NCBI GenBank assembly: GCA_016931575.1
Contig: JAFGEO010000138.1
Location: 1 to 51,003 of the forward strand
DNA from: Bacteroidales bacterium
Lineage (GTDB): Bacteria; Bacteroidota; Bacteroidia; Bacteroidales; UBA10428
Reading direction: 5' to 3'
Length of the DNA: 51,003 nt
Shown in pieces: positions 46,493 through 48,466 of the stretch; the stretch's first letter is position 1; the number at the start of each line of letters is the position of its first letter. Under the pieces are notes generated by a model. That model was not told where the DNA came from. It made no database searches and saw only the letters and a list, made by a program, of their open reading frames with translations. The translations under genes and the position numbers were made by a program.

Positions 46493-47221
46493 CTAATCAA
46501 AATCCAGGTTAAATTCCTGACGCAGTTTTTGGAGGGCAGGATTCTTTTCGATCATGTGCTTCAGCTTATCCAGGTCGGTGTAGTGTTTGGTGATGGAACT
46601 GCTTTCTATATCAAGGATCGTCTCTTCAAATTCCAGCAGGCTGTTTTGCAGATTCTCCTTAAGGTATGCCAGCAGGGGTATCTTGTAGTTTTGTCTGAAC
46701 TCTGCCAGCAAAGCATTGTTTCGGAAAGAAATTCCGATGCTTAGTCCGTCGTCCTGAAGCTCAGGCTGCTGGCTGCTCAGTGCAAGGTAAACACGTGGTG
46801 AATTTTGTTTCCACCGTTCTATATAATTTTTCCACAGGCGATCAAGCTCCTCTTTTGAAACCGGGGGCTGTTCCTCGATTTCAATAATCTCTTCAACCTC
46901 CTCCGGAAGGTTTTCAGTATCCCGGGGCTGGTCGCTGCCCGGGCGTGTTTTCCCCAGTGCGCTAAGGGCATCTTTTATGGAGGGGGTACCCGAAACGGAA
47001 GATTGCGATTTGAAGGGTATTGAGGGTTTGGGCGCCGGGTTCTGAATTCCGGATTCCTGAGCCTGGATTCTGGAGTCTGGATTCTGGATTCTGGATTCTG
47101 GATTCTGGATTCTGGATTCTGGATTCTGGTTACTGGATTCTGGAGTCTGTATTCTGGATTCTGTATTCTGATTACTGGGTGCTTCAATGCCCAGGTCAAG
47201 GATTCCTGATTCTTCTACCCT
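46493..47221 (-). CDS. dnaX: DnaX tau-specific C-terminal region, in another frame than the gamma part
   Basis: Downstream of the A11 run, the frame reached by deleting one A (or adding two) stays open for about 242 codons to TAG at 46493. It encodes a hydrophilic linker of NPESRIQ-type heptads, a KPSIPFKSQSSVSGTPSIK stretch, an acidic region, and a conserved tail (KEELDRLWKNYIERWK, SPRVYLALSSQQPELQDDG, LIEKNPALQKLRQEFNLDFD-like). The tail fits the tau domain V of Bacteroidota DnaX, which binds the polymerase alpha subunit. No start codon of its own fits, so expression needs slippage at the A run or the frameshift is an assembly error. The 73-codon ORF ending here is part of it. Confidence 0.75.
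   Translation of the reverse strand, partial: RVEESGILDLGIEAPSNQNTESRIQTPESSNQNPESRIQNPESRIQNPDSRIQAQESGIQNPAPKPSIPFKSQSSVSGTPSIKDALSALGKTRPGSDQPRDTENLPEEVEEIIEIEEQPPVSKEELDRLWKNYIERWKQNSPRVYLALSSQQPELQDDGLSIGISFRNNALLAEFRQNYKIPLLAYLKENLQNSLLEFEETILDIESSSITKHYTDLDKLKHMIEKNPALQKLRQEFNLDFD
47065..47176. repeat. 7-nt tandem repeat (GGATTCT)16 inside the dnaX tau linker
   Basis: Sixteen contiguous heptamers; ten are exactly GGATTCT, with seven exact ones in a row at 47079-47127, and the others differ by one or two bases (GGAGTCT, GGTTACT, GTATTCT, GATTACT). Since 7 is not a multiple of 3, all three frames read the same NPESRIQ-type heptapeptide on the minus strand. Confidence 0.95.
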
Positions 47222-48332
47222 ATTTTTTTTTTTGACTCTGGTTGCAGAGCTTTATCAGGGCAAGTTCGACATGCAGGCGATGATTTTTGCTTGATTTGAA
47301 ATTTATATCGCATTCGTTACTGATCTCCAGCCAATCAAACAAGAGTTGTTCCGGACATTTTGCAGCCTGTTCCCGGTAGCGGGCTTTTATGGAATCGCCA
47401 ACTTCCAGCAACTGCAGGGTGTGTTCAGCCTTGCAGACCAGCAGATCACGGAAATGCCGGCTAAGACTATTCACAAAATTCTGCGAATCAAAGCCTTTGG
47501 TCAGGATCTGATCAAACAGCAGGAGCGTATCAGGAACCTGGTTCCCCATAAAATTTTCTGTAAGCTGGAAGAAATAATCATAGTCCAGTACATTCAGGTT
47601 CTCAATCACTTTCTGATAGGTGATTTTTCCTTCTGAAAAGCTGACGATCTGGTCAAAAACCGAAAGGGCATCCCGCATGGCACCATCTGCCTTTTGTGCA
47701 ATGATACCAAGGCCTTCCTTCTCATATTCAACAGATTCCTTTTTCGCAATACTTTCCAGGAATTCTACCGTATCATCCACCTTTATCCGGTTGAAATCAA
47801 ATATCTGGCAGCGGGATAAAATGGTTGGCAAAATCTTATGCTTTTCCGTGGTGGCCATAATGAAAATGGCATGCCGGGGCGGTTCCTCGAGGGTTTTCAG
47901 AAAAGCGTTGAAAGCCGCCTGTGACAACATATGAACCTCGTCAATAATGTACACACTGTATCGCCCAACCTGGGGGGGTATCCTTACTTTATCGATCAGC
48001 AGGCGAATATCTTCCACAGAATTGTTTGATGCGGCATCCAGTTCATGAATGTTATAGGATTTGTTCTGTGCAAAATCGCGACATGAATCGCAGACATTAC
48101 AGGCTTCAAACTGTTCCGTCAAAGAATTGCAATTGATGGTTTTGGCAAAAATCCGGGCACAGGTAGTTTTACCGACCCCGCGCGGACCACAAAATAAATA
48201 CGCCTGTGCCAACTGGCGATTCTTAATGGCTGCCTTTAAAGTGGCTGTAATGCTTTTTTGCCCGATAACACTTTCAAAGGTCACCGGCCTGTATTTTCTT
48301 GCAGATACTATAAATTCAGTGTGCTGATCCAT
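47220..48332 (-). CDS. dnaX: DNA polymerase III subunit gamma (gamma/tau), ends at A11 run
   Basis: 370 residues from the ATG at 48332 (MDQHTEFIVSARKYRPVTF); a longer frame to 48407 adds a non-conserved leader. It is the clamp-loader ATPase of the DNA polymerase III holoenzyme. Walker A GPRGVGKTT (49-57), zinc module with Cys68, Cys78, Cys81, Cys84, Walker B DEVH (131-134) and sensor 1 SRC (173-175) are intact. Domain III follows (about 240-360). The protein ends QSQKKK at the A11 run, so the zero frame gives only the gamma form. The tau extension lies in another frame (46493-47221). The window's dnaX is therefore an interrupted gene or a two-product gene. Confidence 0.95.
   Translation of the reverse strand: MDQHTEFIVSARKYRPVTFESVIGQKSITATLKAAIKNRQLAQAYLFCGPRGVGKTTCARIFAKTINCNSLTEQFEACNVCDSCRDFAQNKSYNIHELDAASNNSVEDIRLLIDKVRIPPQVGRYSVYIIDEVHMLSQAAFNAFLKTLEEPPRHAIFIMATTEKHKILPTILSRCQIFDFNRIKVDDTVEFLESIAKKESVEYEKEGLGIIAQKADGAMRDALSVFDQIVSFSEGKITYQKVIENLNVLDYDYFFQLTENFMGNQVPDTLLLFDQILTKGFDSQNFVNSLSRHFRDLLVCKAEHTLQLLEVGDSIKARYREQAAKCPEQLLFDWLEISNECDINFKSSKNHRLHVELALIKLCNQSQKKK
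47223..47233 (-). promoter_or_regulatory. A11 slippage site of dnaX
   Basis: Eleven A on the minus strand, read as CAA-AAA-AAA-AAA and directly followed by stop TAG (47220-47222). The A run is long enough for transcriptional slippage of RNA polymerase, as in Thermus dnaX (A9). Confidence 0.75.
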
Positions 48333-48466
48333 TGAGGCAAAGATAGGCATTAATCTTTCGCTCATGAAGCATTGTTGAAAACTCCTGGAAACAAGACCTG
48401 CCAACATGGCAATTTCATCAGATTATATCCGTTATTACCAGATAGCATAAAGATATAAGCTGACCA

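Follow-up and report, generated by a model that had tools for sequence, protein, structure and literature searches.

A dnaX gene with gamma in the zero frame, an A11 run and an adjoining RNA hairpin in a Bacteroidales genome: a candidate for transcriptional slippage

The dnaX gene and its A11 junction

The window analyzed here is a 51,003-nucleotide stretch of DNA (positions 1 to 51,003 of contig JAFGEO010000138.1, GenBank assembly GCA_016931575.1, Bacteroidales bacterium). Its minus strand carries a dnaX gene whose gamma-like part and tau-specific tail lie in different reading frames on the two sides of a run of 11 A's. The features of the locus are as follows.

47220..48332, minus strand: dnaX zero-frame open reading frame (ORF), gamma-like product (Pfam DNA_pol3_delta2 and DNA_pol3_gamma3; NF011531, TIGR02397)
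47234..47250, minus strand: RNA hairpin GCUCUG-CAAC-CAGAGU plus one C, lying immediately 5' of the A11; candidate stimulator of slippage
47223..47233, minus strand: A11 run, proposed slippage site (from the sequence; an A9-A13 run is present in 199 of 310 junctions)
47220..47222, minus strand: gamma stop TAG in the zero frame, immediately 3' of the A11 (from the sequence)
46493..47222, minus strand: tau-specific tail, 243 open codons after one A is lost (or two are gained), matching NF011531 positions 391-613
47040..47170, minus strand: 7-bp tandem repeat in the tau linker, about 19 copies

The minus-strand junction reads GAGTC, then A11, then TAG (in frame, CAA AAA AAA AAA TAG), and the gamma-sized zero-frame product ends in CNQSQKKK; a first-pass annotation made from the letters alone had described the run, the TAG and a QSQKKK end. 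That annotation had also noted that removal of one A gives a frame open for about 240 codons into a tau-like tail, and that the third frame closes within three codons. Both were recovered: the tau frame is open for 243 codons and stops at 46493, and the third frame is closed two codons on. The N-terminal ORF corresponds to positions 2-365 of the NCBIfam model NF011531 (PRK14971, gamma/tau, 614 positions) and scores 702.6 bits by itself against a cut-off of 685, while the tail corresponds to positions 391-613; judged by these matches, ORF and tail are colinear parts of one gamma/tau protein. Pfam gave no domain match in the tau tail, and the aligned tails of relatives share a common C-terminal domain. 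The zero-frame ORF is 395 aa long when taken back to the ATG at 48407. Because homologs begin to align only at about residue 23-30 of this ORF, the ATG at 48332, which matches the end coordinate of the first-pass annotation, appears the likelier start and by arithmetic would give a gamma of 370 aa and a tau of about 612 aa. No second dnaX was found, a single place in this 98%-complete genome scoring above the TIGR02397 cut-off. Runs of at least 11 A's are rare, with 5 distinct places in the 4.82-Mb genome. The 7-bp repeat unit in the linker encodes an identical heptapeptide in any frame, and any change in copy number not divisible by three would alter the downstream frame.

Transcriptional slippage at A9 has been described for dnaX of Thermus thermophilus (PMC1088944, PMC5009743), an orthologous gene that likewise has poly(A) between gamma and the tau tail and two products. 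The window shares with Thermus-type genes a run of at least nine A's (A11) at the junction and nearby stops in both non-tau frames; its zero-frame product is gamma, whereas that of Thermus is tau. The first-pass annotation had called this arrangement reversed, and gamma is indeed the unshifted product here, but the arrangement is not new. Antonov 2013 (PMC3711429) reported 17 two-ORF dnaX genes from 12 genera that need recoding to make tau, 12 of them with poly(A) (nine with A10), and a 2016 review (PMC5009743) mentions such reversed genes; the window holds a further variant. It resembles those genes in needing recoding for the longer subunit and in having poly(A) at the junction. All 17 are reported as -1 shifts, which in our reading means that the mRNA gains an A. 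The window instead reaches tau with one A fewer or two more, the one-more form occurring in 40 of the relatives surveyed below. The accessible portions of Antonov 2013 do not describe the upstream hairpin, the drifting phase or the breadth within the Bacteroidales found here; the hairpin and the drift also lay beyond what the first-pass annotation had seen.

Run, phase and stops among related dnaX genes

Nine genomes of the genus were searched and gave eight readable junctions from seven genomes; in G002 the contig ends before the junction, and G008 yielded no strong match. All eight junctions have A10 or A11, and in seven the run lies within 19-22 nt of one reference point, the divergent copy L011 having it at 40 nt. 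Five genomes (G000, G001, G004, G006 and G007) have A11, a zero-frame stop directly after it and a tau frame reached by losing one A, although in G007 (L009) the tau tail leaves the contig end after 122 open codons. G003 has A11 with tau in frame, and G005 has A10 with tau one A more away, plus a divergent in-frame copy. The two dnaX copies of G005 (L004 and L011) thus differ in phase; the listed contamination of this genome is 8%, and the pair probably reflects a mixed bin. In other genera of the family, A9-A11 stands at the same place with tau in frame in 13 of 13 fetched junctions, and the ancestral dnaX of the family was probably of the Thermus type.

The first-pass annotation had regarded a homopolymer error as the main alternative and had proposed a comparison of dnaX in close relatives. 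According to that alternative, the true run would be A10 and tau would lie in one continuous frame. A11 is a difficult homopolymer, the window's genome is a draft of 168 contigs, and single-base run errors may be present in individual relatives. However, because four other genomes of the genus share the A11, the zero-frame stop and the tau phase, sequencing error is, on these sequences, an insufficient account of the window's layout. Even A10 would leave a Thermus-type gene with early stops in both other frames. Error is also opposed by the wider survey, in which 63 dnaX genes proved to be out of frame, all of them with a run of at least nine A's, against none of 111 run-less genes. We reject it as the main alternative and consider it highly improbable.

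For that survey, an order-wide search covered 198 genomes, 187 of which had a match; junctions were drawn from among the matches listed, apart from the last 18 and G065, as 28 new loci and 100 regions. Of 80 named loci taken, 69 were kept, 19 of these bearing names of other orders by our own sorting. A run was scored where at least nine A's stood in the interval from -30 to +130 nt relative to a point close to where domain III ends. This first set comprised 215 junctions, 130 with such a run and 85 without, from which two run-bearing genes were then dropped. A second set of 97 junctions, 71 with a run, came from four families picked for holding a loss-of-one-A gene (52 of 54 matching genomes were fetched in one family search and 30 of 56 in another); its sequences are new but not independent of the first set, its 11 loss-of-one-A genes being in part relatives of the 12 found there. 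Rows left out were 16 duplicates (10 and 6); L008, L009, L060, L098, L229 and L286, with at most 400 nt downstream; L088, whose frame changes at several places; and L094, whose tail leaves the frame at a second run, A8, behind its A10. L094 (G074) is an out-of-frame dnaX whose frame change is not at its run of at least nine A's, and the change at A8 may mark another slip site or an error in the sequence. In G313 (C45:60410-61676), dnaX matched in two pieces split near query residue 200, reflecting either an insertion or a frameshift within the ATPase part.

The pooled sets hold 310 distinct junctions, mostly from the window's order, and in 199 of them an A9-A13 run lies close to where gamma domain III ends (A9 in 14, A10 in 124, A11 in 54, A12 in 4 and A13 in 3). 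Elsewhere in first-set genes, no run of at least nine A's occurred over 64.5 kb of upstream sequence, and 8 such runs were counted over 130 kb of tail. Of the run-bearing genes, 136 have tau in frame, 40 require an extra A and 23 require one A fewer, so that 63 of 199 are out of frame; all 111 run-less genes are in frame (Fisher 1.2e-14, uncorrected for relatedness). Among the loci with a run is L199 of Carboxylicivirga sediminis JR1, whose A10 leaves tau one A away. The runs start unevenly over the three codon positions (23, 133 and 43), with the second position dominating (133 of 199).

Parsimony on a FastTree phylogeny built from all 310 gamma parts gave 33 phase changes among run-bearing genes compared with 54-63 for shuffled labels, showing that relatives tend to share phase; run presence changed 47 times on the same tree. 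For the first set, FastTree gave 25 phase and 31 run-presence changes, and a quick IQ-TREE run gave 24 and 28, respectively. Phase nevertheless differs between two sister species, L046, which has A12 and reaches tau by losing an A, and L293, whose A11 leaves tau in frame; the two are 98% alike over the 60 nt 5' of the run and show no difference over the 24 nt 3' of it. The 7-bp repeat of the tau linker was considered as a driver of the frame change and set aside, as it was not seen in the tails of L003, L006 and L007, which have the same phase; the phase therefore arises at the run itself.

Both non-tau frames are closed within 9 codons in 190 of the 199 run-bearing genes, the nine exceptions running on for 11 to 61 codons (121 of 128 were closed in the first set). 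At control positions 45-300 nt downstream in first-set genes the mean was 21%, with 31% the highest of 2000 draws, and the corresponding values were 31% at 300-450 nt downstream and 14% in run-less genes. In the window the non-tau frames stop after 0 and 2 codons. Because early stops are this much more frequent than at control positions, termination of gamma looks to be under selection whatever the phase.

It might also be that tau has been lost or is phase variable in the DNA, so that cells with A11 make gamma only. Long runs mutate fast, and sister species stand one A apart. Out-of-frame tails nevertheless keep the conserved C-terminal domain, and over the last 100 codons of L002 and L003 the differences are fewest at second positions (39, 28 and 63 at the three positions). 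Together with the lack of a second dnaX above the TIGR02397 cut-off in the genome, and with the early stops in both other frames, which suggest that both products are wanted, these points make a loss of tau very doubtful.

A hairpin directly upstream of the run

Hairpins were scored with their 3' arm ending 0-3 nt before the run. The window has a modest 6-bp stem of -5.8 kcal/mol, compared with a mean of -2.0 for synonymous shuffles, of which it reaches only the 10th percentile; it is also kept in the sister genome L003. The excess was evident across the survey. Among 129 cluster representatives of run-bearing genes, the mean was -4.22 kcal/mol, compared with -2.10 for shuffled sequences, -1.80 upstream and -2.07 in no-run genes (p of 3e-10, 3e-9 and 5e-7, respectively), and with -2.22 after synonymous-codon randomization (p 1.4e-9). 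Folding was on average most stable when the 3' arm stopped 0-2 nt short of the run; past about 6 nt the mean energy lay near baseline. In family f42, with 21 distinct in-register stems, 71% of cells were paired compared with 65% after shuffling (1 of 500 shuffles as high), and 11 cells were changed on both sides compared with 5.3 (0 of 500 as high), slid versions being lower; with four in-register rows omitted, the remaining 17 stems gave 8 such cells compared with 3.8 (1 of 500).

In the first set, all 12 loss-of-one-A genes had a hairpin at or below a threshold of -3 kcal/mol, as did 52% of the in-frame and 43% of the gain-of-one-A genes (four controls, 23-27%); the second set gave 11 of 11, 77% and 67%, respectively (three controls, 23-31%). 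Pooled, the counts are 23 of 23, 83 of 136 and 20 of 40, and the hairpins are not specific to genes that depend on deletion. The 23 loss-of-one-A genes fall into 14 clusters, some of them mixed with other phases, and the hairpins of L006 and L007 are marginal (-3.1 and -3.2 kcal/mol). With each cluster given the phase of its first member, the threshold was reached by 9 of 9 loss-of-one-A representatives and 61 of 120 others (Fisher p 0.004). In phylogenetically independent pairs the link between hairpin and phase was not significant, informative pairs being too few, and it never ran the opposite way. The open-access literature searched yielded no paper whose title or abstract describes slippage at a Bacteroidota dnaX together with a hairpin next to the run, and the accessible portions of the Thermus dnaX papers (PMC1088944, PMC5009743) make no mention of such a hairpin. 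A hairpin abutting the dnaX run is a new observation here.

Hairpins adjacent to runs at which transcription slips are known from transposase genes. In Roseiflexus IS630 (U5C5) a 5'-adjacent stem-loop promotes forward realignment, that is, base loss (PMC5009743), and in IS1447 a stem-loop adjacent to A9 is accompanied by about 16% slippage each way, with no visible change when the adjacent codon was altered (PMC6211511). The window resembles both in having an RNA hairpin, here a modest stem, directly 5' of (or overlapping) the run and a productive mRNA, here a proposed one, that is one nucleotide short (for IS1447 as read from its A8 positive control). Unlike those transposase genes, dnaX belongs to the replisome and is present in single copy, and its run is longer. 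Because IS1447 slips about equally both ways, a strong directional effect of the hairpin is disfavored, and by analogy the hairpin need not impose the direction of slippage. Insertion was reported to be at least twice as efficient as deletion on A7-A11 (PMC6260861). Since insertions outdo deletions on such runs, a stimulator would be useful where deletion is needed, and a deletion-dependent design plausibly needs such help.

Transcriptional slippage and ribosomal recoding as routes to tau

The RNA:DNA hybrid in RNA polymerase is 9-10 bp long, and the A9-A13 runs are about this length. This length, shifts in both directions, run starts in every codon position and a hairpin that borders the run upstream point to RNA polymerase as the agent of the frame change. 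From the observed anatomy and its conservation, the phase variation, the hairpin excess and the early stops, we infer slippage in the cell, its ratio, and the role and direction of the hairpin. The interpretation that we favor, with a probability of roughly four in five, is that the window's dnaX yields two clamp-loader subunits through transcriptional slippage at the A11, as the first-pass annotation had proposed for tau. RNA polymerase would produce mRNAs with more or fewer A's: those with 11 A's (11 ± 3n) would give gamma, terminating at the TAG just 3' of the run, those with 10 (or 13) would give tau, and those with 12 would meet a stop two codons on and give a gamma-like protein. The nascent-RNA hairpin would stop a single base short of the run and so border an all-rA:dT hybrid on its upstream side, a placement like that in an intrinsic terminator with A replacing U. 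It would probably raise slippage and may favor the forward realignment that loses one A.

Ribosomal recoding is the other route to be weighed. In this case, a faithful A11 mRNA would be read by a ribosome that either makes a +1 frameshift, aided by the upstream hairpin, or slides on the poly(A). With E. coli 70S ribosomes, a hairpin placed upstream stimulates frameshifting in the +1 direction and attenuates it in the -1 direction, the +1 effect in that system occurring only without RF2 (PMC6321510), and sliding was robust on A11 in the PURE system (PMC4363877). A zero-frame stop stands directly 3' of the run in 13 of the 23 loss-of-one-A genes, but it is missing there in the other 10. Little sliding was reported on A9 or A10 (PMC4363877), the lengths of 138 of the 199 runs here, and 40 genes need a shift in the opposite direction. 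A ribosome would, moreover, need just two slippery codons, yet none of the 111 genes lacking a run of at least nine A's is out of frame.

In E. coli, dnaX uses -1 ribosomal frameshifting at A_AAA_AAG with an upstream Shine-Dalgarno (SD)-like element and a downstream stem-loop. The gene and its two products are the same as in the window, but the signals are absent: a T instead of AAG follows the run, no SD-like motif was seen by inspection in the 20 nt upstream of the run, and no downstream structure was found (fold z 0.40). A -1 frameshift would miss tau and enter the third frame, which is closed after 2 codons. In aggregate there is also little structure downstream of the run (mean MFE -9.1, compared with -8.6 further downstream), and SD-like motifs are rare (8 of 128 run-bearing genes and 2 of 85 no-run genes). 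On these grounds we regard recoding by the ribosome as unlikely, though less so than sequencing error or loss of tau.

Slippage by RNA polymerase would also bear on the drift of phase. Because the run would mix all frames, the phase of tau at the DNA level may be nearly neutral and could have shifted repeatedly, whereas selection would tend to keep the run, the hairpin and the stops in both non-tau frames. We are somewhat inclined toward a broader view, namely, that Bacteroidales dnaX is frame indifferent: a terminator-like hairpin together with A9-A13 would make the polymerase realign efficiently both ways, phase would drift by single A's, selection would act on the run, often on the hairpin and on the stops in both other frames, and the deletion-dependent forms would lean most on the hairpin. 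If that is true, hairpin-assisted polymerase slippage operates in a housekeeping replication gene.

Standard annotation would probably label out-of-frame dnaX genes, such as the 63 of 199 found here, as broken, and none of the 17 frameshifts of Antonov 2013 was annotated in RefSeq (PMC3711429). The pattern described here suggests instead that they are working genes for two clamp-loader subunits. It amounts to a natural slippage experiment, with one gene, runs of A9-A13, three phases, varied hairpins and sister species one A apart. Two questions thereby become open to direct test. One is whether, in a housekeeping gene, slippage by RNA polymerase takes its efficiency or its direction from a nascent-RNA hairpin; the other is whether Bacteroidota need gamma. 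Among the hairpins of the survey, three in-frame dnaX genes, L248 (Rufibacter hautae), L252 and L106, carry 10-bp stems abutting A10, at -14.6 to -16.2 kcal/mol.
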